A stretch of 58,162 nt of DNA from a virus. The stretch covers positions 1 through 58,162 of IMG/VR virus record IMGVR_UViG_3300015076_000001; one strand, 5' to 3'. This document shows positions 19,660-57,548 of this stretch, one piece after another. Numbering within the stretch: position 1 is the first letter of the stretch; every line of letters begins with the position of its first letter. The notes beneath the pieces are model-generated. The model was not told the DNA's origin. It searched no databases and worked only from the letters and a program-made list of their open reading frames with translations. The position numbers and the translations under genes are program-made.

Positions 19660-21237
19660 TCACATGTGACGGATGCCGGGCCGCGCCATGTTCGCCAGGG
19701 CCGCAGCGTGCGTCATCGCGTCGACCCGGTCAGGACTGTCTTGACCGGGCTGCCACGTCGCAGCCTCATGTTCTAGCTTGGGGTGCGTGCCGACCATGCA
19801 GGCGCGGCCGGTCTCGAACATCGGCGCAACCCACAGCATGCGTTCCTGCTTCGTGCCCTTCGCAGTGATCGCGCGCAGGCTCGGGCCGGACGGATGGGCC
19901 AGCACCGCGTCGACGTCCTCGACGGTGAGCTCGGCCAGTTGTTGCGTGACGAGTTCGCGGCGTTCGGTGGAGGCGTCGGGGCCGACGATCCGCGATAGCG
20001 CCTGACCGTGGTCGTGCTCGGTTTCAGCGAGCGCAGTGGCCTGTTCGACGAGGTTGGCCTGCGCGTCCTTGATGCGTTTCGGCAGCTGTGACAGCGACTT
20101 CTCGTAGGCGAGCGTGGGGGCGTTGCGCCGGACGCAGGTGAGCAACGCCATCCGCGCCCACCTGGCAACGGTCATCGGCGCGGAGAGGTCGTCCATGATG
20201 TAGATCTTGCCGGTGGCGCGATGCCAACCGGCGAGGATCATCCCGGCCTCGTCGCCGTCGCCTTCGTTGTCGGCTGGGTCCACAACCAGAGTGAGGTCGC
20301 AGCCATCGGGTAGCTGGGTGAGCCGCCAGGTGTCGAACCACTTGGACTTGAAGACGCCGCCCTCGAGTGGGGCCGGTCGTCCCTGGTAGAGCGCGGCGAA
20401 CGTTCTCTCGCCGACGTCCTTACGGGTCTGCTCCCAGTCCTCCACCGTGCGACCACGAGCGGAGACCAGCCACTCCCCCGCCGGGCGGTCGAGAGCGTCC
20501 TCGGTCTTACCGTCCGCCAACGCTGGGATGTTGACGCTCGGCCAGCCTTCGGCGATGCGCCTGCCCGCGAGGTCGTCCTCCACCCAGCGGGTCTGCACCA
20601 CGATGACGGGTGCGCCGGGGGCGAGGCGGGTGCGGGCGACCGATGACCACCAGTCGTGCAGGGTGTCCCGCACCGTCTCGGAGTCGGCGTCCTTCTGGTT
20701 ACGCAGAGGGTCGTCGATGAACAGGACATCCGCGGGCTTGCCGGTCAGTGAACCGCCGACGCCGACGGTGACCATGCCGCCGACGTGGCCGTCGAGCTGC
20801 CAGTCCGAGGCGTCCGCGTGGTCGCGCGACACCGACAGCCCAAGCTCGCGGCCGTGGGTTTGGACGTAGCCGCGGACCATCCGACCTGACGAGCGGGCCA
20901 GCGATGCAGCGTACGACGCGTAGACGATGCGCCGGTCAGGGTCGTCGGCGAGCAGCCACGTGCACAGCCAGCGTGCGATCGAGGTCTTGCCCTCTTGTGG
21001 GGGCACCGAGACGACCAGCCGGCCGTCTCGGGTCCGCGCGACCTCACGCAGCCGGTCCGCCAGCAACTCGAGCGCGGGAGTGCGGACAGTGGTCTGGTCG
21101 AACCGGGACGCCAAATCCAGCGGGGTTGGGCATTCGCGAGTGATGCGGAGCCGTGCCGCATGGGCTCGGGTTCGTGCCGCGAGCGCGGCCTGCTCTTCTG
21201 GTGACAGGTCGCGGACGAGTTCGGCGACCGCCGTCAT
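19660..21237 (-). CDS. terminase large subunit
   Basis: 525 aa from ATG at 21237, which overlaps the small-subunit stop (ATGA). The packaging ATPase has an atypical Walker A (VSVPPQEGKTS, about 77-86), Walker B with catalytic acid (VLFIDDP, about 171-177) and a coupling motif (VIVVQTRW). The nuclease domain begins near 320 (LTLVVDPADNEGDGDEAG) with a further acidic cluster (YEKSLSQ, DSPDRVDAMTHA). It drives DNA into the prohead and cuts the concatemer. Confidence 0.93.
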   Translation of the reverse strand: MTAVAELVRDLSPEEQAALAARTRAHAARLRITRECPTPLDLASRFDQTTVRTPALELLADRLREVARTRDGRLVVSVPPQEGKTSIARWLCTWLLADDPDRRIVYASYAASLARSSGRMVRGYVQTHGRELGLSVSRDHADASDWQLDGHVGGMVTVGVGGSLTGKPADVLFIDDPLRNQKDADSETVRDTLHDWWSSVARTRLAPGAPVIVVQTRWVEDDLAGRRIAEGWPSVNIPALADGKTEDALDRPAGEWLVSARGRTVEDWEQTRKDVGERTFAALYQGRPAPLEGGVFKSKWFDTWRLTQLPDGCDLTLVVDPADNEGDGDEAGMILAGWHRATGKIYIMDDLSAPMTVARWARMALLTCVRRNAPTLAYEKSLSQLPKRIKDAQANLVEQATALAETEHDHGQALSRIVGPDASTERRELVTQQLAELTVEDVDAVLAHPSGPSLRAITAKGTKQERMLWVAPMFETGRACMVGTHPKLEHEAATWQPGQDSPDRVDAMTHAAALANMARPGIRHM

Positions 21238-21662
21238 GGCTTCGCGCGCAGCGCCATCTCCGCCGCCAGTTCGGCGACAGCGGCGTCGACATCGGCGGAA
21301 GCGTGGGTGACGGTGGCGGAGATCTTCTCCGGCGCGTCCAAGCCGTGGAGCTTCGCGCGGCGTTCCATCAGCCGGATCACGGTCTCCGCGGAGCGGACGT
21401 GACCCTTCATCGCCTGCGGCCACAGGGCCAACAGCAGCTGGTCGAGGCGTTCGAGTTCGAGGGCGAACACGACCTCGGCCTCATCCTTCGGCACCTCGGC
21501 CAGGGCTTGCTTGACGGCGCGTTGCGCGGAGCCGCGGTTGGTGTAGCCGACACGGTCTGCGATGGCGTCGTAGGTGGCTCCCGCCTTGCGGAGCTTCAAC
21601 GCTTCGCGGCGCTTCTCGGCGGCTTCGATGCGGCGGGGGGATGCCATGTCCTCAGCCATCAT
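21234..21662 (-). CDS. terminase small subunit
   Basis: 142 aa, ATG at 21662 overlapping the methylase stop. Residues 10-55 carry a helix-turn-helix (EKRREALKLRKAGATYDAIADRVGYTNRGSAQRAV), then helical oligomerisation segments (ELERLDQLLLALWPQAMKG, AETVIRLMERRAKLHGLD). It recognises the packaging site and recruits the large subunit encoded next. Confidence 0.82.
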   Translation of the reverse strand: MMAEDMASPRRIEAAEKRREALKLRKAGATYDAIADRVGYTNRGSAQRAVKQALAEVPKDEAEVVFALELERLDQLLLALWPQAMKGHVRSAETVIRLMERRAKLHGLDAPEKISATVTHASADVDAAVAELAAEMALRAKP

Positions 21663-23245
21663 TCCCCCGTGAAGTCGTGTGGGATGCCGTCACGGGTGGG
21701 CTTAACACCCGTGTGTTCCTGGTAGCGACGGCAGATGACGTCGACATAACCCGGGTCGAGCTCGCAAGCAACGACCGTCCGGTTCAGATGGTGGGCGGCG
21801 ATGAACTCGGGGCCGCTGCCACCGAAGGGGACGCCGATGACGTCGCCAGCCTCGCTGCTCGACTTGAAGGCCCGCTCAACCATCGCGACCGGCTTGGGGG
21901 TGGCGTGGCCCTGGCGCTCTTCGCCTGTGACCCGGGGGAACTCCCAGACGTCGCGCATGACGTCGTGGGCGTTATCGAAGAACGTGCGTGACTCGCGGAG
22001 TTGCGCGGACAGTTCCCGACGGTGGGCGTTGCCGCCGCCCTTCACCTCAGGGAACATCTCCGCGAACAGCTCGTCGTAGTCCTTGGTGAACGCGCGACCG
22101 GCCGCGGCCTGCTGCAGCGTCCAGTAGTGCTGCGCGGAGATAGGCGCGAACTGTGAGCGGCTGAACCAGTGCCCGGCCATCTGGGTGGCGGTGAGGCCGT
22201 TGACGTCCCGGTTGGTCCAGCCAACCTTGTCGCGCTCGACTTCTAACCACGCGCGCAGCGGCTCGTAGCCTTCCCAGAAGTCGTCCTTGTTCTGGTTGCC
22301 GAGGAACTGCTCGCCGCGCATGAGGAACAGGCATCGCTCGGTTGCGGTCGGGAATGAGTGCTCGAGCGCGGAGCGCATCCCGGGCGTGCTGCCTTTGTCC
22401 CAGACGATCTCGTTGCGGACGAGAAGCTCGTCGGAGGCGAGACCACCCACCCACCAGAGCCGCCACAGGTCGGGGGCGTTACCCCAGATGTAGGCGGAGC
22501 CATTCTCGGCGAGCGTGGGGAGCCATGCCTTCCACCAGCGCATCTGGAACTCGTCGAGCTTGGGGCCGTACAGGTTGTCGTTGAGGACCCCGTCGGCTTC
22601 CTTGCCCATGCCGTAGGGCGGGTCGGCGTGGATGAGGGTCAGCGTGGCCTCGCCGACGACGCGTTTGACGTCTGCCGGGTTGGTGCTGTCGCCGCAGAGC
22701 AGACGGTGGGGGCCGAGTTCCCACAGGTCGCCGAGCGCACTGACGGGCTCCGCGGGGGGGTCGGGTGTGGCGTCGTCCGGGGTGAGGCCTGCGCCGGCAC
22801 CGCCGTTGTCGTCTTCCAGCCCGTCTAAGGCCGCTTCGAGCGCTGCGAGGTCGCCTGCGTCGTAGCCGGTGCCGTCGAGGTCGGGCAGGTCGGCGAGCAG
22901 TTCAAGCAAGAGCCGGTCGTCGTACTCACCCAAGTCCGAAGACCGGTTATCAGCTGCCACAATGCGTGCGGCCTGGTCGTCGTCCACGTCCACCGTGACC
23001 GCTGCGACGGTTTCCCAGCCGAGATCACGGGCGGCCATGAGGGTGTGGTTCCCGGCCAACACCTCGTTGGGGCGGCCGGTGTAAGTACCCGCGTTGATCA
23101 GGATGGGCTTGAACTGCCCGTTGACCCGGAGCGACTGTGCGATGACTGCGGTGTTGCCACGTCGTGGGTTGCGGTGATACGTGCGCAGTTCGGCGACGGG
23201 GACGGTGGTGGTTTCGAGGTTGTGCACCCGGTTGGTTGTGGTCAC
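21659..23245 (-). CDS. ParB-like nuclease domain fused to DNA methyltransferase
   Basis: 528 aa, GTG at 23245. Residues 12-110 are a ParB/sulfiredoxin-like domain (PVAELRTYHRNPRRGN, IAQSLRVNGQFKPILIN, GNHTLMAARDLGW). Residues 165-520 are an amino-methyltransferase of the beta order: DPPYGMG at about 208 (catalytic motif IV), and GDVIGVPFGGSGPEFIAAHHLNRTVVACELDPGYVDVICRR (SAM-binding motif I) near the end. It probably makes N6-methyladenine or N4-methylcytosine, protecting phage DNA from restriction or marking packaging. It sits directly upstream of the terminase genes. Confidence 0.9.
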   Translation of the reverse strand: MTTTNRVHNLETTTVPVAELRTYHRNPRRGNTAVIAQSLRVNGQFKPILINAGTYTGRPNEVLAGNHTLMAARDLGWETVAAVTVDVDDDQAARIVAADNRSSDLGEYDDRLLLELLADLPDLDGTGYDAGDLAALEAALDGLEDDNGGAGAGLTPDDATPDPPAEPVSALGDLWELGPHRLLCGDSTNPADVKRVVGEATLTLIHADPPYGMGKEADGVLNDNLYGPKLDEFQMRWWKAWLPTLAENGSAYIWGNAPDLWRLWWVGGLASDELLVRNEIVWDKGSTPGMRSALEHSFPTATERCLFLMRGEQFLGNQNKDDFWEGYEPLRAWLEVERDKVGWTNRDVNGLTATQMAGHWFSRSQFAPISAQHYWTLQQAAAGRAFTKDYDELFAEMFPEVKGGGNAHRRELSAQLRESRTFFDNAHDVMRDVWEFPRVTGEERQGHATPKPVAMVERAFKSSSEAGDVIGVPFGGSGPEFIAAHHLNRTVVACELDPGYVDVICRRYQEHTGVKPTRDGIPHDFTGE

Positions 23246-44496: not shown

Positions 44497-44759
44497 GATT
44501 CGTGCTCCCAATCCTCGGAGGCGGGCAGCGCGATAGATGCCCAGAAGTCGACGGGGATTCCCCCGGCCTGCATGTGGTTCGCGGCGTAACGGGCGCAGAT
44601 GATCGCGACCTTCTCCGGTCGCACACCCTGGTCGTCGGCAGCGGCTTGAAGCGCCGCCAAAGCGTCGGACGTGGCCGTGTTCGTCTCGCGGGACATGTGC
44701 CGTACCAGGGCGATCGCTGTGCGGATTTCGGCGTGAGTGCCGACGGGGGGCTGTGTCAT
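44493..44759 (-). CDS. small helical protein
   Basis: 88 aa. THAEIRTAIALVRHMSRETNTATSDALAALQAAADDQGVRPEKVAIICARYAANHMQAGG, all-helical, ends DWEHES. Directly downstream of the antirepressor in the operon. Not recognised. Confidence 0.6.
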   Translation of the reverse strand: MTQPPVGTHAEIRTAIALVRHMSRETNTATSDALAALQAAADDQGVRPEKVAIICARYAANHMQAGGIPVDFWASIALPASEDWEHES

Positions 44760-45565
44760 GAGGCCACGTCCTCAACCCGCAGGTGGTTGTGCAGCCACTC
44801 CAAGCCCTTGACCGTCACCCGGATCTGCGGCGGATCAAAGATCAGCTCAGCGGTACGCGGGTGGTAGTGGGACTGCGGAAGCTCCATCAGCCGACCTGAC
44901 TCGATCGCGGTCTGGTAGGCGCGCCACCGCTGGTCGGCGCGGCCCCGGAAGATCCAGCCGAGATCCGACAGAACGGTGAACAGGCGCCGCTCCCCGATCT
45001 TGATGTTGGGGTCGCGAGACAGCAGCTTCGCCGCGTCAGCCACGGACAAGTCACCGGCAGCAGTAGCGAGGGTGTTCCACGACTCGGCCGCCGGAGCCAG
45101 TGCCTTGACCTGCGCCTTAGCGGCGACCAATTCACGGGCGGTGTTGCCCAGGATCTCGACGACAGCGAGGACGCCCTCAGGGGTGGAGATGTCCGGGACC
45201 GCGACGGATGCAGCCGCGACGGCGGCGACTTCGCCACGGCGGTAGCGGGGCAGCAGGTCGGACGTCACCCAGCGCTTGAACTCCCGCGCTTCAGGCTTCG
45301 GCGACTGGAACACCAGGTCGTAGAGGCCGGACTCGTTGACGACCGTGACCTCTTGGACCTGCGGAGCGATACCCCGGAAGTACTGCGGAGTATCTGACCT
45401 GCGCAGACGGCGGACGTCCCGATCATCGACCCGGCGCAGCGCCGACGTGGTGTCCTTGAGGGCGCAGATCGCACAGACGTCGACCGCTAGGAACCACGGC
45501 TCGCCGTCCAGGATGAGGGTCCGGACCTCGTGGTCGCGGAAGGTGAACAGTTCGATCTCGCTCAT
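44756..45565 (-). CDS. phage antirepressor (Bro-N plus KilAC domains)
   Basis: 269 aa, ATG at 45565. Bro-N domain at 1-110 (LFTFRDHEVRTLILDGEPWFLAVDVCAICALKDTTSALRRV, VNESGLYDLVFQSPKPEAREFKRWVTSDLLPRYRRG). KilAC/ANT domain at about 150-265 (DLSVADAAKLLSRDPNIKIGERRLFTVLSDLGWIFRG, IRVTVKGLEWLHNHL). Antirepressors release phage repressors or host regulators. Its place early in the leftward operon, after the divergent promoter, fits a switch role. Confidence 0.9.
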   Translation of the reverse strand: MSEIELFTFRDHEVRTLILDGEPWFLAVDVCAICALKDTTSALRRVDDRDVRRLRRSDTPQYFRGIAPQVQEVTVVNESGLYDLVFQSPKPEAREFKRWVTSDLLPRYRRGEVAAVAAASVAVPDISTPEGVLAVVEILGNTARELVAAKAQVKALAPAAESWNTLATAAGDLSVADAAKLLSRDPNIKIGERRLFTVLSDLGWIFRGRADQRWRAYQTAIESGRLMELPQSHYHPRTAELIFDPPQIRVTVKGLEWLHNHLRVEDVAS

Positions 45566-46456: not shown

Positions 46457-46531
46457 CGTGACCCTTCCGTAGCGGTTGGTGTTGCCGCGGATCCCCGTCG
46501 TGTCTTGGCGGATGAGGCGGGGATCCGTGCT

Positions 46532-46629
46532 TGTTTCTGTCGCCACAGAATAGGCCCGAACGGGCCGGTTGCGCAAGTTGATCCGGCGTGTTTCTGTCGC
46601 TACACTTATGGCCATGGCCGTAGCGACAG
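46532..46629. promoter_or_regulatory. divergent promoters with three operator boxes
   Basis: Rightward promoter: TTGATC (46578-46583), 17-base spacer, TACACT (46601-46606), start near the ATG at 46614 (leaderless). Leftward promoter: TTGCGC (46576-46571), 17 bases, TATTCT (46553-46548). Boxes: TGTTTCTGTCGCCACA (46532-46547), TGTTTCTGTCGCTACA (46589-46604) and the inverse GTAGCGACAG (46620-46629). Each -10 touches a box, so one repressor could close both. A TTGCGCAA octamer (46569-46576) lies on the leftward -35. Confidence 0.75.
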
Positions 46630-46994
46630 GACATTGCCCTGACCAGGGCGAACCGTCTACGGTCGCGACCATGGTGGGGCGGCCGAAGACAGGAGTCACC
46701 TTCATCGCCCGCGTCCGCATCCCGAAACCGGAGTGGGACGCGATGGAGGCGGACGCCGAAGTCATTGGGCCCGACCGATCCAAGCTGATCAACGAGTTCG
46801 TCGACATGATCCGACGCGACCCCATCGCCTGGCGCGACGCCCGACGGGTCGCCACAGCACGCGGCGAGACCATCGTCGGCGTCGTCCTCAAGGCCCTGCG
46901 CTCGTACGTCGCCCGCAACCGTGAGCTGCTCATGCCGCCACCAACGGAGACCCGGCCGCCCGAGCAAGCCGCTCCCGAACTGCCCTCGTCCTGA
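46614..46994 (+). CDS. putative ribbon-helix-helix regulator of the divergent promoters
   Basis: 126 aa from ATG at 46614 (second of two in-frame ATGs; the promoter geometry implies a leaderless start). Residues 25-75 (GVTFIARVRIPKPEWDAMEADAEVIGPDRSKLINEFVDMIRRD) look like a ribbon-helix-helix: a strand then two helices. A second helical segment (ARGETIVGVVLKALRSYVARN) and a Pro-rich tail follow. Being under the repeated boxes, it is the natural candidate to bind them. Its 3' end overlaps the LuxR gene on the other strand by 65 bases. Confidence 0.65.
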   Translation: MAVATGHCPDQGEPSTVATMVGRPKTGVTFIARVRIPKPEWDAMEADAEVIGPDRSKLINEFVDMIRRDPIAWRDARRVATARGETIVGVVLKALRSYVARNRELLMPPPTETRPPEQAAPELPSS

Positions 46995-47262: not shown

Positions 47263-47519
47263 GACGCCACCGCCCGACGATCGCGTTCACGCTGCGTCCG
47301 AGCAGTCGTGCACGGCACGCACCGGCACGAATAGTTGACATACGTGGAGTAGTCGCCGTGACGGACGTAAGCGCCCGGAGCGACAAGGCGGCCACCGACC
47401 ATCACCCGCGCGGCGCGCCTCTTGCGCTTGGCCTCACCCTGGTAGGCGTTGGCCGCCGCCCGGCACATGCCACAGCGGCATCTGTAGTTCACATAGGTGG
47501 AGTAGCTGCCGTGTTTCAC
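47259..47519 (-). CDS. tandem Cys-repeat protein
   Basis: 86 aa. Two copies of HGxYSTYVNYxCRCxxC (residues 3-19 and 54-70) joined by a basic linker. The unit resembles the GRxGTxAGYxAHxxxGxxPCxxC repeats of the homing endonuclease at 14607..15722 and probably binds zinc and nucleic acid. Confidence 0.68.
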   Translation of the reverse strand: MKHGSYSTYVNYRCRCGMCRAAANAYQGEAKRKRRAARVMVGGRLVAPGAYVRHGDYSTYVNYSCRCVPCTTARTQRERDRRAVAS

Positions 47520-47791
47520 AACCGACCCCTGTAATCGACGTGGACGTCATCGACAGGCAGCCGCGGGTTCCCCCACGACGTCGACGGCCGCGGCGGAGGA
47601 CCCCCAAGAGTCGTGAGCCGAGCCCGGTCCGCCACATCGGCCCGCAACCGTTCGATCTCTTTGCCCCGCCGGTCGTACTCGGCCATGACCGCTTGCGCGT
47701 CTACTCCGAGTGGTGACTGCTCACTGGCGAGGATGCGGAGCGCGTTCTCGTGGGCTCGCAGGAAACCGGCGGCCTGCTCGTCGGCGGTCAC
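47516..47791 (-). CDS. small helical protein
   Basis: 91 aa. TADEQAAGFLRAHENALRILASEQSPLGVDAQAVMAEYDRRGKEIERLRADVADRARLTTLG is helical, with a Pro-rich end. Coupled to the glycosyltransferase gene. Not recognised. Confidence 0.6.
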   Translation of the reverse strand: MTADEQAAGFLRAHENALRILASEQSPLGVDAQAVMAEYDRRGKEIERLRADVADRARLTTLGGPPPRPSTSWGNPRLPVDDVHVDYRGRL

Positions 47792-49116
47792 GCGGCCACC
47801 TCGAGCTCGACAACCTCAGCGCCGGTGGCGCGGGTTCCCCAGTTGGTGGAGCGCAGCGTGCACAGCGACCAGATCCGCAGCGGCAGCAACACGAGGACGT
47901 GCAACATCCCGTACAAGGGGGCGAGCAGGAACACCGCCAACTGCTGGACGCGGGGATAGTCGGGGCGGCGCACCGAGAACACGTGGACGGATCGGGCGTA
48001 GCCACCCAACGTGACCCACACGAGGTAGTCCACGACATGCACCTCGCCGGTGATGGCGGGCAACACGAACAGGGTGAAGAACAGTCCACCGGTGAAGCCT
48101 GCCCACGACACGGTCTCCACCAATGCAAGCCACCAGGCGGGACGACGCGGGGACAGATGAGTCAGCGACCACAGGGACTCGCGGAAGAACGACCGGCCCC
48201 AGCGAATCTGTTGACGGATCAGATGCCCGCCCTTCTCCGGGACGGCGGTGCGCGCGACCGCCGAGTGGGCGAGCACAACCCGCCCGTGCAGCAGCGACAG
48301 GTTGGTGAGGTGGCGGTCGTCGCCGTACGTGGCGGGCTGGCCCAGGAAGGTTTGCCCCAGGAAGTCCTCGAGGTGAGCCTTGACGATGTCGGCCCGCCAA
48401 AACGCCAACGACCCGCACACGCACAGCACCGCACCCAACCTCGAGTAGGCGGCCCGCTCGTACAGGAACGCGTTCACATACCGCAGGTCCAACAGCCGCG
48501 GCAGCAGCCCGGAAGCATGGTTGAGCGCGACAACGGTTCCGGTGACAGCGGCGGTACGCGGGTCGGTGAACGGCGCCAACCCCTCCCGGATCGCGCCGGG
48601 CTCGAGCACGGTGTCGGAGTCGACACACACGAACACATCCACCAGGTCGGCGAGCTCGGCGAACGCCCGCCCCATCGCGGCCCGCTTGCCCGCGTTGTGC
48701 TGCCACACCACCGTCGCCCCTCGAACCCTCGAGGCCCAATCGGTGGCGACCCCATAGGCAGCGGGATCAGTGGAACCGTCATCGACGATCCGCACGAACA
48801 CGGGCTGATGCGTTTGACGACCGATCGACTTGAGGCAGCGGGCCAGCGTGGCGGGATCCTCGTTGAAGATCGGCACCACCACGCACACCCGCGTCGTCGA
48901 CAGCGCGGGCGACCACTGCTGCGGCGGCGCCAGTGACAGCCCCAGCTTCACCGCCAGCAGCACACCCACCGTTGCGCCATAAACGCCCCACACGTGGGCG
49001 CTGTGCGCCAGCCACACGACGGCCACTGAGGTGATGAGGGTGGCGACGGCGAGGGTTGCGGCAGGGTTGGGGCGGGTGGTGATCTCGACCAGCCGCAACC
49101 GGTGACGGCCGCTCAC
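47788..49116 (-). CDS. hyaluronan-synthase-like membrane glycosyltransferase (GT2)
   Basis: 442 aa from GTG at 49116. Two N-terminal membrane helices (about 18-38, 44-62), then the GT2 catalytic domain: VCVVVPIFNEDPATLARCLKSI, VDDGSTD (112), VCVDSDTVLEPGA (DxD near 166), YGDDRHLTN (265) and QQIRWGRS (302-309), the set of processive synthases. Three or four C-terminal helices follow (about 330-420). It probably builds or modifies a surface glycan using UDP-sugar, more likely changing the host envelope than phage DNA. Confidence 0.9.
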   Translation of the reverse strand: MSGRHRLRLVEITTRPNPAATLAVATLITSVAVVWLAHSAHVWGVYGATVGVLLAVKLGLSLAPPQQWSPALSTTRVCVVVPIFNEDPATLARCLKSIGRQTHQPVFVRIVDDGSTDPAAYGVATDWASRVRGATVVWQHNAGKRAAMGRAFAELADLVDVFVCVDSDTVLEPGAIREGLAPFTDPRTAAVTGTVVALNHASGLLPRLLDLRYVNAFLYERAAYSRLGAVLCVCGSLAFWRADIVKAHLEDFLGQTFLGQPATYGDDRHLTNLSLLHGRVVLAHSAVARTAVPEKGGHLIRQQIRWGRSFFRESLWSLTHLSPRRPAWWLALVETVSWAGFTGGLFFTLFVLPAITGEVHVVDYLVWVTLGGYARSVHVFSVRRPDYPRVQQLAVFLLAPLYGMLHVLVLLPLRIWSLCTLRSTNWGTRATGAEVVELEVAA

Positions 49117-49229
49117 GTCTCGCCCCCTGCGCAGTCCATGTCGCATTCGTCGTCGGAATGCCAGACGGCGCAGTCCGCACGATGAATCGGGCCTGGGGTG
49201 TCGTCGTCCTCGACGGCCAGGGCGGTCAT
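49113..49229 (-). CDS. 38-aa acidic Cys protein
   Basis: ATG at 49229, stop overlapping the glycosyltransferase GTG. TALAVEDDDTPGPIHRADCAVWHSDDECDMDCAGGET is acidic with three Cys and two His. Coupled on both sides, so probably real. Confidence 0.55.
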   Translation of the reverse strand: MTALAVEDDDTPGPIHRADCAVWHSDDECDMDCAGGET

Positions 49230-49450
49230 GACACACCGCCCGTGCTGTAGCCGTCCACCGCGTCGACCAGGGCCTGCAAGGTGGGGTCGTCGAGGGCGTC
49301 GAGCCTGCGGGCGGTCGTCGTCACATACACCGCTGCGGCGTCCGCTATGGGGCGCAGCTGCTGCACCTCACGCGCTAGCAGGTAGGCGGAACTACCCGGT
49401 CGGGCCTGGGTCAGGCCGTAATGCAGGGCAGCCTCAAGAGGAGTGGTCAC
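49226..49450 (-). CDS. small helical protein
   Basis: 74 aa. TPLEAALHYGLTQARPGSSAYLLAREVQQLRPIADAAAVYVTTTARRLDALDDPTLQALVDAVDG, all-helical. Not recognised. Confidence 0.6.
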   Translation of the reverse strand: MTTPLEAALHYGLTQARPGSSAYLLAREVQQLRPIADAAAVYVTTTARRLDALDDPTLQALVDAVDGYSTGGVS

Positions 49451-49656
49451 GACGCCACCGCCTTGGTGGGCCTCACGTACCAGGTGCGGTCGTTCTCCGC
49501 GAGCGCCCAGCCGTCACCGGCGGGGCGCATGCGAACGCCCTGGAGGTAGACGGTGTCGCCCTCCATGGTGGCGTCGACGGGCACAAACCCGGGCCAGCGA
49601 CTCCCAACCCTGATGAAGATGGCGGCGTAGGCATGGGCGCGTTCCAGAGCGGTCAT
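49447..49656 (-). CDS. small hypothetical protein
   Basis: 69 aa. RAHAYAAIFIRVGSRWPGFVPVDATMEGDTVYLQGVRMRPAGDGWALAENDRTWYVRP, beta-rich. Not recognised. Confidence 0.6.
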   Translation of the reverse strand: MTALERAHAYAAIFIRVGSRWPGFVPVDATMEGDTVYLQGVRMRPAGDGWALAENDRTWYVRPTKAVAS

Positions 49657-49940
49657 GAGGTCACCGCGTCGAGCTCGAGCCCCGTGATCTCGCGCGCCTC
49701 ACCCAAAGTGGGACGCCGGGTATCAGCGTGGACACCGACGGATTCCGCCCACACCGACGACAGCGACAGGCACACCCGCATGTCGCAGCACAACCGGTAG
49801 TGCGGCTCCACGTCCCAACCGTCAGAGCCGTCGACGGCGACGATGGCCTCGATCAGCCAGGCGATAGGCCGGTCGCCGCATACCCAGCAGGTGGCGACGC
49901 GAGGTGCGATACGGCGCCAGAGGCGCAGGAGGGCGCTCAT
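49653..49940 (-). CDS. small protein with two Cys pairs
   Basis: 95 aa, ATG at 49940. VATCWVCGDRPIAWLIEA and YRLCCDMRVCLSLSSVWAE suggest a zinc site around a helix. Directly downstream of the WhiB gene. Not recognised. Confidence 0.62.
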   Translation of the reverse strand: MSALLRLWRRIAPRVATCWVCGDRPIAWLIEAIVAVDGSDGWDVEPHYRLCCDMRVCLSLSSVWAESVGVHADTRRPTLGEAREITGLELDAVTS

Positions 49941-50377
49941 GCCGACACCGCGCTCTTCCGGGCGTTACGCCGCTTCAAGGACCGTCGCTCGTCTTCGCTC
50001 AGGCCGCCGAAGACGCCCGCGTCGAGACCGTTCGCCATCGCGTAGTCAAGACATTCGCTGACCACCGGGCACCGAGCACAGACCGCCTTGGCGTCGGCGA
50101 GCTCCAAGAGAGCGGGCCCGGACGTCCCCACTGGGAAGAAGCGGTCCGGGTAGACCTCGCCACGACATGCCGCGCGGTGGCGCCAGTCGTCACCTCCGCC
50201 GCTCCGGCGCTCCCCCGCAGGCTGCTTGGCGACCTTCCCGGCCCGGCGATCCTTGGCGCAGTCCACGGAGCAGGTGATCTGCGGCGCCCACTTCGACGGG
50301 GAACAGGAACGCGGCCGGTAGAAACGGTCCCCGCAGGCGGGGCAGGTTTTGAACTCGGCGAAGAAGTCGGCCATCAC
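49937..50377 (-). CDS. WhiB-family Fe-S regulator with N-terminal zinc finger
   Basis: 146 aa, GTG at 50377 in a GTGA overlap; ATG follows. Residues 10-42 are a zinc finger (KTCPACGDRFYRPRSC...ITCSVDCAKDRR). Residues 62-142 are a WhiB domain: DDWRHRAACRGEV (Cys71), CARCPVVSEC (Cys100, 103, 109) for the 4Fe-4S cluster, GVFGGLSEDERRSL as the G-[VI]-[WF]-G-G turn, and a basic end (KRRNARKSAV). WhiB proteins bind sigma factor SigA in actinobacteria; phage copies interfere with host WhiB function. Confidence 0.92.
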   Translation of the reverse strand: MMADFFAEFKTCPACGDRFYRPRSCSPSKWAPQITCSVDCAKDRRAGKVAKQPAGERRSGGGDDWRHRAACRGEVYPDRFFPVGTSGPALLELADAKAVCARCPVVSECLDYAMANGLDAGVFGGLSEDERRSLKRRNARKSAVSA

Positions 50378-50979
50378 GATCCGACCTCGACAGGCACCGG
50401 GTCGACAAAACGGACCGGCTTACCCAGGGTTGCCGCATACGACACTTCCAGCAGCGACCACCGACCCAGGGTTCCGTCCGGGCGGGGGACCACCACGATC
50501 TCATCCGCCGTAGCCAGGTAGGGCTTGTAAGCCTCCACCGCAGCGGGCTCGTCTGTGTCGGCAGCGAAACGGGGGATGGCGATGACGTCGCGGCCCGCCC
50601 TGGTCTCAGCGGCGGCGACAGCGTGAAGCAGCCCCGGGTGAAACAGCGACCCGATGATCGCCACCTTTACCCGCCGGTCCCCGTCCAGAACCCGACGCAC
50701 CGCGTGAATCGCCCAGACAAACGGGGCATCCAGGGTTTGCACCTCGACGCTCAGATCGTCGAACGCGATGAGGCTGCGATGTTCCGGACGGTCCACGGTG
50801 GTCGCCAAGGACCAGGCGTCGTGAACATCCTCCAACGTGGTCGCGGCACCCTTTGTCAGGACGAGGAGGGCGTACAGCCGCCCCATCTCACCGGGGAGGG
50901 GCGAATGGCCGTGCCGTGTCAGTTCCTCGTTGAGGAGGTCAACAACCCGGTCGACGTAGTTGGTTTCGGTGGCGGTCAC
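50374..50979 (-). CDS. two-domain protein with deoxyribosyltransferase-like C-terminus
   Basis: 201 aa, GTG at 50979. The helical N-terminus (YVDRVVDLLNEELTRHGHSPLPGEMGRLYALLVLTKGAATTLEDVHDAW) is typical of a small actinophage domain. The C-terminal half is Rossmann-like (VKVAIIGSLFHPGLLHAVAAAETRAGRDVIAIPRF, ATADEIVVVPRPDGTLGRWSLLEVSYAATLGKPVRFV), like nucleoside deoxyribosyltransferases or sugar-nucleotide binders. Catalytic residues are not certain. Confidence 0.7.
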   Translation of the reverse strand: MTATETNYVDRVVDLLNEELTRHGHSPLPGEMGRLYALLVLTKGAATTLEDVHDAWSLATTVDRPEHRSLIAFDDLSVEVQTLDAPFVWAIHAVRRVLDGDRRVKVAIIGSLFHPGLLHAVAAAETRAGRDVIAIPRFAADTDEPAAVEAYKPYLATADEIVVVPRPDGTLGRWSLLEVSYAATLGKPVRFVDPVPVEVGS

Positions 50980-51521
50980 GACGAGGTCTCCTTGACGAGG
51001 CGGGGGCGATAGGACGGGAGAGCGGTGGTGCGCTCCACGCCGTCATGGCCGGGTGAGGGCTGGTGGTGACGCCCGCTGTCCGGCAGGGAAAGGACGGGCG
51101 CGGGAGTGCGAATCACCTGCTGCTCGACGCTCGGGCGCACGGGAGGGGCGGGCAGGGGCCAGACCGACGGAGAACGGTTGCCCAGGTCCGGGGCGAGCGG
51201 TGCCGAGACGGGCGTGGGCATGGGTTGGAACACCTGCGGCCCAGCGGCGTCGACAGCGGGCGGGGAGAACTCGCCCGTTGCCACCCGTTCCGCCATCTCC
51301 TGACGGGTCGACTGCACGGGATGGGCCCGGGTGGCGCTCTCCGCGGTCGCGACCCGACGCACTTCGGCTTCGGTGAGCGCGGCGGTGACGGACTCGGCGC
51401 GACCCGAACGGCGCCCGGCCCAGTGGCCCAGAGCGAAGAAGACGGCGAGGACCACACCCGCCACGGTGAGCAGGATTGTCAAGGCTGGGTCGGTGTTGAG
51501 GGGGGTGATGAGGTCGTTCAC
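50976..51521 (-). CDS. single-span membrane protein with Pro-rich tail
   Basis: 181 aa. One membrane helix near 15-34 (ILLTVAGVVLAVFFALGHWAG), a charged helix (ESVTAALTEAEVRRVATAES), and a long disordered Pro/Ser-rich tail. Not recognised. It resembles phage membrane anchors of unknown role. Confidence 0.62.
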   Translation of the reverse strand: MNDLITPLNTDPALTILLTVAGVVLAVFFALGHWAGRRSGRAESVTAALTEAEVRRVATAESATRAHPVQSTRQEMAERVATGEFSPPAVDAAGPQVFQPMPTPVSAPLAPDLGNRSPSVWPLPAPPVRPSVEQQVIRTPAPVLSLPDSGRHHQPSPGHDGVERTTALPSYRPRLVKETSS

Positions 51522-51754
51522 GAAACGTCTCCAGGTGAAGGCGGGGTTTCCCCGCCGAGATGGGGGGCGGCGGCGGCACGCAGGGCCGCGAGAGAACCCG
51601 GCGCCAGCCGCAGCACAAGGTGCGTGGTGCCGTCCTGGTCACCGATAGAGACGGTGTGACGGCCATCCCCGCGGGCGGCGATACGGACCGGGTGGGAGGC
51701 GAAATCAGCGGTGACGTAGATGGTGCAATCGGTGATCGTCGGCGGGGCGGTCAC
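51518..51754 (-). CDS. small beta-rich protein
   Basis: 78 aa. TITDCTIYVTADFASHPVRIAARGDGRHTVSIGDQDGTTHLVLRLAPGSLAALRAAAAPHL, a beta-sheet with one helix. Not recognised. Confidence 0.6.
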   Translation of the reverse strand: MTAPPTITDCTIYVTADFASHPVRIAARGDGRHTVSIGDQDGTTHLVLRLAPGSLAALRAAAAPHLGGETPPSPGDVS

Positions 51755-52308
51755 GGCGTCGCCTCGGGGGCGTCAGTCCACGGGCCAGTGCGGATCTCGC
51801 GGCGGACGGCCACACCGGAATCGGTCGGGTCCGCCGCTACGACGCGCGCCGCCTCCTCGTCCTCGTAGTAGTCGTCGACGTCGTCTTCGCGATAGCGGAC
51901 ACCCCACTCGACGCGCACCTGGCCCGCGTCCAACTCGGCGACCCGGGAGCGGAGGTAGGCCAGCTCCTGTCGCATGCCCACCACGCCGAGGTAGCCGAGG
52001 AACGAGCGGGCGATGTGTTCGGAGTCGGCTACGCCGCCGTTCATCAGGTTGCGAAGGTGCCGGGCCAGCGCCCCCACCTCGACGTCGGCGGGCTGCGACG
52101 GTGCGTCGCGGTGTGCGGCAGTCAGCCACACCGCGTCAGCAGGCAGCTCACGGATGATCGCCCAGCCGTCACCGTCGGCCGACCACGCCAGCGGGACAGT
52201 GGCGACGGTGGCGTCGATGAGGCCGTGCTGGGAGTGCTCATCACCGGCGGCGGCGTTGAGGTGCTCGGCCAGCGACGGGGACCAATAAAGAACCGGCGGC
52301 AGGGTCAT
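51751..52308 (-). CDS. acidic hypothetical protein
   Basis: 185 aa from ATG at 52308. PPVLYWSPSLAEHLNAAAGDEH, a central helix (VGALARHLRNLMNGGVADSEHIARSFLGYLGVVGMRQELAYLRSRVAEL) and an acidic segment (YREDDVDDYYEDEEAARVV). Not recognised. Confidence 0.62.
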   Translation of the reverse strand: MTLPPVLYWSPSLAEHLNAAAGDEHSQHGLIDATVATVPLAWSADGDGWAIIRELPADAVWLTAAHRDAPSQPADVEVGALARHLRNLMNGGVADSEHIARSFLGYLGVVGMRQELAYLRSRVAELDAGQVRVEWGVRYREDDVDDYYEDEEAARVVAADPTDSGVAVRREIRTGPWTDAPEATP

Positions 52309-52505
52309 GTCCGGTCCTCGACGGGAACCAGACGCCACGACGCCGCGCTCACGGAGGGGCCACCGTCGGGCGTGTAGCTGACGCTGAGCACATCTCCGTC
52401 AATGGACCACCCGAAGTAGCCCATGACGTCGTCGCCGTCGTTGTAGTCGGAGCTGGCGTCTTCTCCGTACTCGGAGAGGATCGCGAGCATCTGCTGCGCG
52501 TTCAC
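52305..52505 (-). CDS. small acidic protein
   Basis: 66 aa from GTG at 52505 (GTGA overlap). NAQQMLAILSEYGEDASSDYNDGDDVMGYFGWSIDGDVLSVSYTPDGGP, acidic with a beta-hairpin. Not recognised. Confidence 0.6.
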   Translation of the reverse strand: MNAQQMLAILSEYGEDASSDYNDGDDVMGYFGWSIDGDVLSVSYTPDGGPSVSAASWRLVPVEDRT

Positions 52506-52615
52506 GAGACACCCCCGATGGTGTTGAACGCGCAACCGGGGTTGTGCGGGCTGCCGTAAGGGGCTCCGCAGCTGATGCAGGTAATGGCGGACAGGAGCCG
52601 CAGCAGGCGCCTCAT
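52502..52615 (-). CDS. 37-aa protein with Cys pair
   Basis: ATG at 52615 overlapping the upstream stop; its TGA overlaps the next GTG. MRRLLRLLSAITCISCGAPYGSPHNPGCAFNTIGGVS: a hydrophobic start and C-x2-C...C. Similar CxxCGxPYGxxHxPGC proteins occur in other actinophages, from memory. Confidence 0.58.
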   Translation of the reverse strand: MRRLLRLLSAITCISCGAPYGSPHNPGCAFNTIGGVS

Positions 52616-53010
52616 GCCACCACCGCCACGTGTGCCGGGTTGGTGCAGCCCCGGACGGAGCAGGCGGAGAAGGTGCCGACCCAGGTGCAGCGGGGCAGGG
52701 CGTCCAACGCCTGCTGACGGTCCAGTTCCGCGAGAGCACCGGACGCGGTGAACGCGCGCGCCTTCGGCAGGGACACCTCACCGCGGAGCTCGCGGCCGGT
52801 GGGCGTGTGCCGCACCGTCCATGTGGAGCCCGCGTTCTCGGCGCGGAAGTACAGCCACACGCCATCGGCGGAGCGGCAGGAGGCGATCTCCTCACGCTGC
52901 TTGCGGAGGTCGATCAGGGTCATGATCGTGGTCTGGTCGATGTCGGTGAGACCGACTCGGGGGGCCGCCGCAGTGAAGCGGGGGCGGGTGGGGCAGGCCG
53001 TTTGGTGCAT
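52612..53010 (-). CDS. hypothetical protein, first gene of a leftward operon
   Basis: 132 aa from ATG at 53010; MTLIDLRKQREEI further inside is an alternative start. TLIDLRKQREEIASCRSADGVWLYFRAENAGSTWTVRHTPTGRELRG, then a helix (LAELDRQQALDAL) and a C-terminal Cys cluster (RCTWVGTFSACSVRGCTNPAHVAV). It lies directly behind the operator boxes at 53031-53069, so it heads the early accessory operon down to 46930. TATGCT about 11 bases before the ATG may be its -10. Confidence 0.62.
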   Translation of the reverse strand: MHQTACPTRPRFTAAAPRVGLTDIDQTTIMTLIDLRKQREEIASCRSADGVWLYFRAENAGSTWTVRHTPTGRELRGEVSLPKARAFTASGALAELDRQQALDALPRCTWVGTFSACSVRGCTNPAHVAVVA

Positions 53011-53030: not shown

Positions 53031-53069
53031 CTGCGCATATTGCTAGTGATTCTTGCGCGTGTTGCGCAA
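53031..53069 (-). promoter_or_regulatory. operator boxes (TTGCGCAA-like) for the accessory operon
   Basis: CTGCGCAT (53031-53038), TTGCGCGT (53053-53060) and TTGCGCAA (53062-53069). The last two, 9 bases apart, match the pair at 55035-55051 in 15 of 17 positions (TTGCGCGTGTTGCGCAA versus TTGCGCATGTTGCGCAG). An AGAGCA element flanks both sites. One repressor probably controls both promoters. Confidence 0.72.
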
Positions 53070-54515: not shown

Positions 54516-54686
54516 CTATGCGGCTGCGTTAACTTCTGGCTGCGCGCAGGTGAACACTCTGCGTAACACTTCGATCTGTTCCGGGGTGGGGTCGGGGGCG
54601 TCGTCGGCGAGAGCTCTGGCGTGGGCCGCAAGATCAGGACCTAGCGCGGCCGCGGACTCGGCGACGGTCGGGAGCCGGGTGTTCAT
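54516..54686 (-). CDS. small helical protein downstream of Cro-like gene
   Basis: 56 aa from ATG at 54686, overlapping the upstream stop. NTRLPTVAESAAALGPDLAAHARALADDAPDPTPEQIEVLRRVFTCAQPEVNAAA. Not recognised. Confidence 0.58.
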   Translation of the reverse strand: MNTRLPTVAESAAALGPDLAAHARALADDAPDPTPEQIEVLRRVFTCAQPEVNAAA

Positions 54687-54985
54687 GCGGCGCGGTTTTC
54701 GGTGCGCGATTCGGCGGCTGCGCGTTCGGCGCAGACGGGGCAGCCGGCGACGGTGACAAGATCGTCGATGGTGAGCGGGCGCCCGTCGATGAGGATGCCG
54801 AGCCGGTTGGCGGCGGCGACGAACCGGTGAGCCATCTCGACGGAGACGTAGGTGCTGTTGCCGGTGTCGGAGCGGACGACGGTGGAGATGTGGCAGCCGA
54901 CCTCTGTGGCGAAGCGTTTCTGGCTGATCCCCGCTGCTCGGCGGGCGTCGCGCAGCTTCTCGCGGTGGTAGGTGGCGCCGATCAT
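54683..54985 (-). CDS. XRE-type HTH regulator (Cro-like candidate)
   Basis: 100 aa, ATG at 54985. Residues 8-60 are an HTH (REKLRDARRAAGISQKRFATEVGCHISTVVRSDTGNSTYVSVEMAHRFVAAANRLG). The C-terminus has a Cys pair (VAGCPVCAERAAAES). It faces the rightward HTH gene across the box array at 55013-55064, the arrangement of a lytic regulator opposite a repressor. Confidence 0.72.
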   Translation of the reverse strand: MIGATYHREKLRDARRAAGISQKRFATEVGCHISTVVRSDTGNSTYVSVEMAHRFVAAANRLGILIDGRPLTIDDLVTVAGCPVCAERAAAESRTENRAA

Positions 54986-55012: not shown

Positions 55013-55064
55013 ATGCGCAAATTAGAGCACACTCTTGCGCATGTTGCGCAGAAGTGTTGCGCAA
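55013..55064. promoter_or_regulatory. operator array of the immunity-like switch
   Basis: Four boxes related to TTGCGCAA: ATGCGCAA (55013-55020), TTGCGCAT (55035-55042), TTGCGCAG (55044-55051) and TTGCGCAA (55057-55064). The array separates the leftward gene at 54985 from the rightward repressor-like gene at 55179. AT-rich TCTAAT between boxes one and two may be the leftward -10. Confidence 0.72.
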
Positions 55065-55166
55065 TAGTGGCGATCATGTGCGCTACCTGCGACTCTGCCT
55101 CCCGTGACGGGGCAAATCGAACGAGTGATCATCGATCCAGGCGCGCTAGGTAAGCAGAGTCCTGCG

Positions 55167-55172
55167 TATTCT
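55167..55172 (+). promoter_or_regulatory. -10 box of a leaderless promoter for the repressor-like gene
   Basis: TATTCT lies 6 bases before the GTG at 55179, so transcription would begin at or next to the start codon. No good -35 was seen. Confidence 0.5.
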
Positions 55173-55178
55173 TCCGCC

Positions 55179-55514
55179 GTGAAGTGGACCGCGGAGGAGA
55201 TCCGCAGCCGACGCCGCGCCAAAGACTGGTCGCAAGACGACCTCGCTCAAGCGCTCGGCGTCCACAAGAGGTCGGTCACCAACTGGGAGTCGGGCGCGTC
55301 CAAGCCGCAGGCCGGGAACATCGACGCGCTGGAGCACGCGCTCGGGGACGCGCCGGTCCCGGAGGTGACTTTGTCGGGCGCGTCGAACCTGCAATTCGTG
55401 TCCGAGCTTGCGCGAAGACTGGAAGCGGGCGGGCTGGACGACAGCCTCAGATTGCCCGAAGGGGACATCGGGTGGCCGCAACGGAAGTTGACGCGGCGTA
55501 GCCGTAACGCCTGA
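55179..55514 (+). CDS. XRE-type HTH repressor candidate
   Basis: 111 aa from GTG at 55179 (leaderless). Residues 1-58 are a clear XRE domain: VKWTAEEIRSRRRAKDWSQDDLAQALGVHKRSVTNWESGASKPQAGNIDALEHALG. The C-terminal part (NLQFVSELARRLEAGGLDDSLRLPEGDIGWP) may oligomerise. It has no LexA-type peptidase, so induction would need another signal such as the antirepressor. It probably binds the TTGCGCAA boxes and maintains lysogeny. Confidence 0.78.
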   Translation: MKWTAEEIRSRRRAKDWSQDDLAQALGVHKRSVTNWESGASKPQAGNIDALEHALGDAPVPEVTLSGASNLQFVSELARRLEAGGLDDSLRLPEGDIGWPQRKLTRRSRNA

Positions 55515-55794: not shown

Positions 55795-56079
55795 GTGCAG
55801 CCCGCTCAAGACCCCGGCGAAGCTCGACACCTCGCGCTCTACCGCACCCTCACCGGACACCTCGCCGCCGCGGGCGTCACCATCGAACACGCCGACCTCC
55901 CCGACGAGATCGCCCACTGGACCGCAGCCACCAAAACACTGACCCTGCACAACAGCGAAGGCCTCGCCGAGCACGTCGAGATCCTCGGCGACTTCATCAA
56001 CATGATCTCGCTTGATCAGCCCTCCCGTCTCGGCGCCCGCCCACTCCCCCCGCGGCGACACCTCCACGTCGTCGACTAG
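55795..56079 (+). CDS. small hypothetical protein
   Basis: 94 aa from GTG at 55795, AGGAGG 8 bases upstream. RHLALYRTLTGHLAAAGVTIEHADLPDEIAHWTAATKTLTLHNSEGLAEHVEILGDFINMI is an alpha/beta domain. Its TAG is palindromic with the integrase stop (CTAG), so the two genes meet tail to tail. Position between repressor and integrase suggests a lysogeny role; not recognised. Confidence 0.65.
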   Translation: MQPAQDPGEARHLALYRTLTGHLAAAGVTIEHADLPDEIAHWTAATKTLTLHNSEGLAEHVEILGDFINMISLDQPSRLGARPLPPRRHLHVVD

Positions 56080-57548
56080 GCCGCGCCCAGCCACTCCAGC
56101 CGCACCGTGTCCGGGTCAAAACCGCGCACACCTTTGCGCGTCACCGGCAACACTGTGACCGTGCACAAGGCGCGGACCACGATGCGCCGCTGCTCGATCC
56201 CCAAGGTGTCCCACACCGCCGCAGCGTCCGCACCCGCCATCTCCAGCACCGCCGTAGGAAGCACCGGCAACGGGGCGATCTCAGCCTCCAGTTCGGCAAT
56301 CCGGGACGAGATGCGGGTCGCGATACGGACGAACGTGGCCGCCGGCACCCCCGACGGGGTACCGGCCAATGCCTCATACTCGGCCAACTCGGCACGGGCA
56401 TCCGTCAACTCTTGAGCGGCCACCTCCATCCGCCCCGATGGTTTCACCGGCGCAGTGAAAGCCGCAGCCCAATCCGGGCGGGACAGCCGTTCCACGACGG
56501 CCAGGGCGACGAAGGCGTCAAGCGGTGGGGCCGCGCGGGAAACATGCCCGGTACCGGTGCCGTTGAGTCCGTTGCAGCTATAGGAGGGGCGGCCACGGTT
56601 GGAGTAGTGCCGCAACCATCCGCCGCACACCGCGCACTTGCCGATCCCCGACAACAGATGGCAGGCAGCGGTGCCGCGCTGGGTTCGCCGCCGCGGATCG
56701 TTGATGATCCGCAGCACCGCCTCATAATCGACCACCGAAACCAGCGGCTCCCACGCGATGCTGTGCCGCACGCCGCGATGGACCCGCCAGCCCGCCATCG
56801 TGGGCGAGCCCAGCAGCTTCCGCAGCTTCGGGTTGTTCCAACCGCCCCGCTGCACCCCAACGCGCTTAAGACGCCTGTCCCGAACCATCTGCGGGGTTGG
56901 CACCCCGCGCCGGTTGAGGTCCACCGAGATGCCGTGCAAGCTCTCTCCCGCCAAGACACGGGCGACTACCTCTTGCACGATTGGAGCTGTCTCCTCGTCC
57001 GGCACCTGCCGGGCGGGCTCTCCCGACGCGGGGTCGTACTCGCGGCGGAACCCGTAAGGGATTGACCCCCAAGCGCGCCCCTGCTCAGCAGCGGAGTCCG
57101 TGGCCCGCTTCACCCTCTCGGAGATCATGGCCGACTCACGGACAGCCATCGCCATGCCCAAGTCAAGGAGGAAACCGTCATCCGGCCGGCGGACGTCATG
57201 GTCTTTCCCGTTGACGGAGATCAGCACCCCGGAGCGGGCACAGGCCTTCATCAGGGCCGCCCACACCTCGCGGTCACGGGACGCCCGGGACACTTCCCAC
57301 ACCCACAGGATGTCCAACTTCTTAGCGGCGATGTCAGCCATGACCCGCTGCCAGTCAGGCCGTTGTTTGCGGGTGTCGTAGGCCGAGATGCCATCGTCGC
57401 GATACTCACCGACGATGTGATGCTGTTGCTGGTTTGCCCAGCGGCGGCCAACGCCGAGCTGGGAGTCGACTGATCTACCTTCCCGGGTGTCGATGGAAAC
57501 GCGGCCGTAGATGCCGGCGCGTTGACTGGGCTTGGCCACTGCTGACAC
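56076..57548 (-). CDS. int: large serine integrase
   Basis: 490 aa, GTG at 57548. Catalytic resolvase domain at 8-155 (AGIYGRVSIDTREGRSVDSQ with Ser18; WVWEVSRASRDREVW; GFLLDLGMAMAVRESAMISERVKRA). Recombinase domain at 160-300 (IPYGFRREYDPASGEPARQVPDEETAPIVQEVVARVLAGESLHGI, LLGSPTMAGWRVHRG). Zinc ribbon near 312-335 (CAVCGGWLRHYSNRGRPSYSC). A coiled-coil segment lies near 380-435 and a C-terminal part follows. It recombines attP with attB without host factors. attP is expected close to the gene; it was not identified. Confidence 0.95.
   Translation of the reverse strand: MSAVAKPSQRAGIYGRVSIDTREGRSVDSQLGVGRRWANQQQHHIVGEYRDDGISAYDTRKQRPDWQRVMADIAAKKLDILWVWEVSRASRDREVWAALMKACARSGVLISVNGKDHDVRRPDDGFLLDLGMAMAVRESAMISERVKRATDSAAEQGRAWGSIPYGFRREYDPASGEPARQVPDEETAPIVQEVVARVLAGESLHGISVDLNRRGVPTPQMVRDRRLKRVGVQRGGWNNPKLRKLLGSPTMAGWRVHRGVRHSIAWEPLVSVVDYEAVLRIINDPRRRTQRGTAACHLLSGIGKCAVCGGWLRHYSNRGRPSYSCNGLNGTGTGHVSRAAPPLDAFVALAVVERLSRPDWAAAFTAPVKPSGRMEVAAQELTDARAELAEYEALAGTPSGVPAATFVRIATRISSRIAELEAEIAPLPVLPTAVLEMAGADAAAVWDTLGIEQRRIVVRALCTVTVLPVTRKGVRGFDPDTVRLEWLGAA

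Follow-up and report, generated by a model that had tools for sequence, protein, structure and literature searches.

Background

The closest working analogue of the gene described here appears to be the early hyaluronan synthase (HAS) of the chloroviruses. The HAS of Chlorovirus PBCV-1 (A098R) was reported in 1997, and why viruses make the polymer before lysis has been an open question since then (PMC9614988). Chloroviruses transcribe HAS early and coat the infected cells with hyaluronan (PMC7019647). In solved HAS, the signature positions touch UDP, the GlcNAc acceptor and the channel GlcA; the motifs that matter are DxD, GDDR, R381/W382 of QxxRW and the gating WGT..R, a GlcNAc collar is formed by Y288, F292, C307, W382, S385, D342 and R343, and R287 and R296 adjoin the channel GlcA (PMC11750622). 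Several of the signature residues are needed for HAS activity, and enzyme changed at K218 shows no turnover (PMC11750622). Phages are known to carry family-2 glycosyltransferases (GT2) of the GtrB type (phrog_841), which act at the membrane in surface modification and are not polymerases. A limited search of the open-access literature found no paper on a phage-encoded HAS or on HAS-type enzymes in Streptomyces. In this study, we report a HAS-type glycosyltransferase gene (GT) on a stretch of 58,162 bp, which is a whole IMG/VR virus record and is referred to as the window, and compare the gene with these systems, with the chitooligosaccharide synthase NodC and with its relatives in actinobacteria.

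The phage contig

The following phage genes were identified in the window.

2-2224, minus: tape measure protein, cut by the left contig end; the record lacks the tail tip and lysis genes
12118-13497, minus: major head protein
13494-14546, minus: maturation protease
14607-15722, minus: HNH endonuclease, between the portal and maturation protease genes
15937-18159, minus: portal
19660-21423, minus: terminase large subunit
44756-45565, minus: Bro-N/KilAC antirepressor
56076-57548, minus: serine integrase (Resolvase and Recombinase domains), near the right end

The relatives of the terminase and portal are phages of actinobacteria (35-44% identity), and by its gene content the contig is a real phage of actinobacteria, of the temperate type. 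The original prediction had placed the glycosyltransferase on a phage, and the terminase, portal, capsid, tape measure, serine integrase and antirepressor genes on the same contig show this to be right. A recombinase-like ATPase family protein is also encoded in the window. No Resolvase-domain integrase was found in five viral relatives and in Streptomyces phage Kromp.

One stretch of the HNH endonuclease matches WhiB-like phrogs. The gene at 21659-23245, upstream of the terminase in transcription order, encodes a protein that joins a ParB-like domain at its N-terminus to an N6/N4 DNA methyltransferase. The large protein encoded at 26016-27662 belongs to phrog_850 (RNA-binding protein), is possibly, we assume, of the TROVE/Ro type, and a protein 56% identical to it is encoded some 2 kb downstream from the glycosyltransferase gene of another relative (L008).

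The glycosyltransferase gene and its reading frame

The gene, the parts of its product and the short reading frame that precedes it are as follows.

47788-49116, minus: HAS-type processive GT2, 442 aa, from the open reading frame, Pfam, NCBIfam and PDB matches and the model
aa 18-62: TMH1-2
aa 77-290: GT-A domain
aa 204-226: IFH1
aa 296-320: IFH2 with QxxRW
aa 326-419: TM and interface helices
aa 426-429: WGTR gating motif
49229-49113, minus: 38-aa ORF, joined to the preceding gene and to GT by ATGA and GTGA overlaps

On the minus strand, 47788-49116 is a single open frame of 442 codons that runs from GTG at 49116 to the stop at 47788; a plus-strand reading was ruled out by stops. The interval agrees exactly with that given in the original prediction. 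A longer version of 482 aa (GTG at 49236) is disfavoured, and 49116 is the better start, because the 38-aa ORF is coupled to it through the overlapping GTGA. The codon-position GC of the gene is 0.69/0.51/0.84, and dN/dS against close phage, plasmid and cell relatives (64-72% identical) is about 0.25-0.35. These values show a protein under selection, and together with the Pfam, NCBIfam and PDB matches given below they exclude a chance origin of the ORF.

Assignment of the enzyme class

GT2 domains were found in the protein by Pfam (Glyco_tranf_2_3 at 1e-20). The top NCBIfam match was NodC (TIGR04242) at 4e-59, yet its score of 201 bits lies under that model's own cut-off of 550 bits, and the PgaC/IcaA PNAG synthase model (TIGR03937) gave 53 bits against a cut-off of 422. 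Membership of the NodC and PgaC families was rejected, since the equivalog cut-offs were missed and the residues differ. Among PDB sequences, the top matches were Xenopus HAS1 and the Chlorella-virus HAS (2e-31); when a profile of 53 relatives was used, HAS reached 3e-61, with chitin, cellulose and chondroitin synthases far below.

The motifs located in the protein were GVYG (44-47, corresponding to the GLYG motif), DSDT (166-169), GDDR (265-268), QQIRW (302-306) and WGTR (426-429). All 16 HAS positions compared are identical (K218, D242, R287, Y288, F292, R296, C307, D342, R343, Q378, R381, W382, S385, W491, G492 and T493); these include the GlcNAc collar and the IFH1 arginines (R287, Y288, F292, R296, C307, W382, S385, D342 and R343), and the Arg that follows WGT in the CvHAS-type gating motif is also present. 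The same letters are carried, with rare exceptions, by about 40 actinobacterial relatives. In the five rhizobial NodC proteins examined, three to four of the 16 positions carry other letters, and all five proteins have Glu for R287, Cys for F292 and WL(A/S)R for WGTR.

An AlphaFold2 model was built from 52 aligned sequences (pLDDT 91, pTM 0.91) and has the GT-A domain, interface helices and TM helices of the HAS fold. The first 13 Foldseek matches of this model were all HAS (E 5e-25 to 1e-18), and all others were at 4e-14 or weaker. In alignments made with VIA-align, the Z score against HAS was 28.6-33.8 over about 370 residues, against 30.3 for the archaeal mannosyltransferase PcManGT and at most 26.5 for fungal chitin and bacterial cellulose synthases. 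TMH5-6 of the solved viral and vertebrate HAS are absent, as in NodC, since the chain has only 17 residues left from the gating Trp onwards. Bacterial class I HAS are also of about 420 aa, and short bacterial HAS likewise lack the two C-terminal helices; TMH5-6 may not define the class.

From its sequence, its residue signature and its predicted fold, the protein is firmly assigned as a processive family-2 glycosyltransferase of the HAS type. The hyaluronan-synthase-like character proposed in the original prediction is thus strongly supported, the processive GT2 motifs and membrane helices it had named are in place, and the structural comparison with hyaluronan and chitin synthases that it had put forward as a check came out on the side of HAS (Z up to 33.8, against at most 26.5 for chitin synthase).

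Comparison with known systems

The PBCV-1 HAS (PDB 7sp6-7spa, 8snc-e, 9yq2-5) and the window enzyme are both virus-encoded and of the HAS type, with the same catalytic, gating and channel-entry residues and the same fold over about 370 residues, and the early expression of the PBCV-1 HAS is probably shared by the window gene, judging from the operon layout and boxes described below. They differ in that identity is only about 27% and the window enzyme lacks the C-terminal TMH5-6. PBCV-1 also encodes its own UDP-glucose dehydrogenase (UGD) and GFAT, whereas no UGD was found on the window contig, which is incomplete, and no such cassette was seen there. Unlike PBCV-1, the window phage is a tailed phage with a bacterial host.

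Xenopus HAS1 (PDB 8smm-p), which gave the best Z (33.8), shares all checked active-site and IFH1 residues but is longer, with six TM helices, and has WGTS in place of WGTR. NodC, the best NCBIfam match, is of similar length and 31-36% identical, but R287, F292 and the gating GT are replaced in it and the window protein scores far under its equivalog cut-off. GtrB (phrog_841) matched weakly and over the N-terminal GT2 part only (5e-05), and no Gtr flippase partner was seen among the families of the operon neighbours. GtrB-type conversion, or GtrABC seroconversion, was rejected on this weak match and on neighbours without flippase or third-transferase families.

Relatives and their distribution

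The search for genome relatives gave 345 candidate places, and the best 80, which were kept, are nearly all from Actinomycetota. Viral relatives are the loci L003-L045. Relatives on chromosomes and plasmids of Streptomyces, Kitasatospora, Actinopolymorpha, Blastococcus, Modestobacter and a Pseudonocardia MAG are 39-72% identical and almost all have the full HAS signature; they differ from the window gene in their cellular location and are evidently the source pool of the phage gene. These relatives point to a large set of actinobacterial enzymes that have the full HAS signature and apparently no characterised member, and that might serve as a source of hyaluronan-type synthases from non-pathogens.

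The six closest copies, that of the window included, occupy different settings, the other five being as follows.

L004: contig with a tyrosine recombinase and a terminase
L005: 104-kb contig, on which a ParA gene and a small ORF immediately precede the gene
L046: Pseudonocardia MAG, with the gene between a large transposase-like protein (read from its sequence as presumably Tn3-like) and a TrwC relaxase
L047 and L048: two Geodermatophilaceae genomes

In L005, which is possibly a phage-plasmid, an Rv2525c-like glycoside-hydrolase-like protein is encoded on the other side of the gene. The chromosomal HAS-signature enzyme of Modestobacter sp. VKM Ac-2977 (L048, genome G006) is 68% identical to the window protein, and a full-length NDP-sugar dehydrogenase was not found in that genome. 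Within the Modestobacter group, the gene was present in only 1 of 23 genomes.

In the tree, the window protein lies within a set of copies from phages, plasmids and cells that has strong support, and at least seven switches between phage and cell are required. A shared phage backbone as the cause of the shared gene was rejected, as tblastn of the window proteins against all loci gave scattered single matches only; the close relatives therefore sit in unrelated elements. A HAS-type gene carried by actinobacterial phages on several unrelated backbones would make the purpose of the polymer testable.

A separate, diverged clade of GT2 proteins is found in phages only (L012, L016, L034-L045, Streptomyces phage Kromp gp79 as L002, and related loci) and recurs in Streptomyces-type phages. 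Kromp gp79 and its clade belong to the same superfamily (35-38% identity), but have SDD for GDDR and have lost R287, Y288, F292, C307, R343 and S385; in the Kromp subclade, Met replaces the Q of QxxRW. On these residues, the window enzyme has the HAS signature and the Kromp-type clade has lost it, and the clade likely makes another polymer.

In Phytoactinopolyspora endophytica (L051), the HAS-signature gene follows, by eye, a UDP-GlcNAc 2-epimerase-like gene, a neighbour that may point to a polymer with ManNAc in this species.

Operon structure and regulatory boxes

The operon in which GT is the last gene but one runs from 53010 to 47516, with all genes co-directional and with overlapping start and stop codons. 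The operon and the regulatory region upstream of it comprise the features below.

47516-47791, minus: last operon gene, 91 aa, no family, overlapping the GT stop
49226-49450, 49447-49656 and 49653-49940, minus: three small overlapping genes, no Pfam family
49937-50377, minus: WhiB-type regulator
50374-50979, minus: DUF7701 protein
50976-51521, minus: Pro-rich protein with a single hydrophobic N-terminal stretch
51518-51754, 51751-52338, short ORFs and 52612-53010, minus: remaining operon genes
53032-53069: box cluster upstream of the operon, with TGCGCA at 53032 and 53063 and TCTTGCGCGTGTTGCGCA at 53051-53068
54683-54985, minus: weak HTH protein in a Cro-like position
55014-55064: switch region of four TGCGCA boxes, flanked by the divergent HTH genes
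55104-55514, plus: HTH_3 protein, candidate CI-like repressor

The original prediction had the operon controlled by TTGCGCAA boxes, and in substance this was right. The exact 8-mer was seen three times against 0.7 expected; the stronger fact is the cluster of four TGCGCA within 60 bp (55014-55064), which arose in 0 of 300 sequences of a first-order simulation and is repeated upstream of the operon. Control of the operon by the boxes is supported by the 18-bp motif TCTTGCGCGTGTTGCGCA (53051-53068), which recurs at 55033-55050 with one change (a 94% copy). The cluster between the divergent HTH genes looks like a CI/Cro immunity switch, and we infer a second operator at the early operon. Because the same boxes stand at the HTH switch and before the GT operon, the operon is likely repressed in the lysogen, and it is probably off there and on early in lytic growth or on induction. 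A search for sigma-70-like promoters found none, a result of little weight for an actinophage with GC-rich DNA. A second regulatory-looking site was noted at 46500-46650, where repeated TTTCTGTCGC(C/T)ACA, inverted CGTAGCGACAG elements and one exact TTGCGCAA occur; it lies near an ORF on the plus strand whose product weakly matches an Rv0623-like antitoxin.

Proposed product and function

We propose that the single GT-A active site would add UDP-activated sugars of the infected cell to a growing chain, and that the enzyme would pass this chain through its own membrane helices. The sugars would be GlcNAc, most likely alternating with GlcA to give hyaluronan or something close. A phage HTH repressor would keep the operon, with GT as its distal member, silent in the lysogen, and the polymer would appear on the cell surface in early lytic growth or after induction. 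There it would probably limit secondary adsorption by other phages or protect the infected cell; superinfection exclusion is offered as a hypothesis. For this explanation as a whole, we estimate a probability of about 0.5. In wider terms, and tentatively, with the odds somewhat against it, a temperate actinophage entering lytic growth would cause its host to spin a hyaluronan or hyaluronan-like polymer from host sugar nucleotides, as an independent bacterial counterpart of the chlorovirus system, and the sister phage clade would have retuned the scaffold for another polymer.

The residue signature argues for hyaluronan as the product, to which we give slightly less than an even chance, and most of the remaining probability goes to another HAS-type polymer. 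An enzyme of the same class making a GlcNAc homopolymer (chitin-like) or another beta-linked polymer is rather doubtful, as the Glu, Cys and L(A/S) letters at 287, 292 and the gating motif occur in 5/5 NodC proteins and the window protein and its approximately 40 relatives have the HAS letters almost throughout, and as the score is far under the NodC cut-off (201 against 550 bits). It would be in keeping with NodC being the best-scoring curated family, with the NodC-like size and short C-terminus, and with motifs and an active-site plasticity that are common to HAS and chitin synthases (PMC12987647). The supply of GlcA also bears on it. No UGD was found on the window contig (no TIGR03026 match in this incomplete record) or in five viral relatives, which are mostly partial, and UDP-GlcA would therefore have to come from the host, which is possible. 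Of 25 cellular carrier genomes searched, a full-length NDP-sugar dehydrogenase match was missing in Modestobacter only; if that genome is complete, its copy could not easily make hyaluronan. UGD co-occurrence is a weak test of the product because UGD-family genes are nearly universal in controls, and the Modestobacter absence alone is informative; this carrier, like the phage contig, is what a chitin-like product would allow.

The timing and use of the polymer may also be read differently. The original prediction was that the polymer coats the lysogen surface, and expression from the prophage with masking of the lysogen's receptors would fit the integrase and HTH switch on the contig. It would also fit the Haloactinopolyspora prophage (L003/L007/L050), in which the gene is encoded on the opposite strand and has an HTH gene of its own next to it, an arrangement common among morons; lysogenic conversion is plausible in that prophage, with its classical-moron layout, but is not the best reading for the window. 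Whereas a moron has its own promoter and stands apart from the lytic operons under repression, GT is one link of an overlapping, co-directional operon, and the boxes upstream of it are the same as those of the immunity-like switch. The gene of L006 likewise lies in an HTH-led operon, in which a pair of HTH genes facing away from each other is followed by a long operon with GT and then WhiB just downstream, by its layout an early region too. Coating of the lysogen is weakened as a claim by this repression-type arrangement, and we regard it as unlikely for the window. Rather than excluding other phages, a polymer made early might, for instance, clump infected cells, protect against stress or predators, or draw off energy or sugar; this is somewhat unlikely, although nothing specific counts against it and the chlorovirus hyaluronan, of unknown purpose, is dispensable for replication in the laboratory (PMC7019647, PMC9614988). 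A host-captured passenger without function for the phage would accord with the frequent occurrence of relatives on plasmids and actinobacterial chromosomes and with the phage/cell switches in the tree; set against the intact frame, the dN/dS values, the full catalytic signature and the translational coupling, it is improbable.

Another arrangement was seen in Caudovirales GX15bay (L130), in which a GT2 gene with WGTR is followed by genes annotated as endoglucanase and mannanase, with a second GT2 nearby; this is a different phage polysaccharide cassette.
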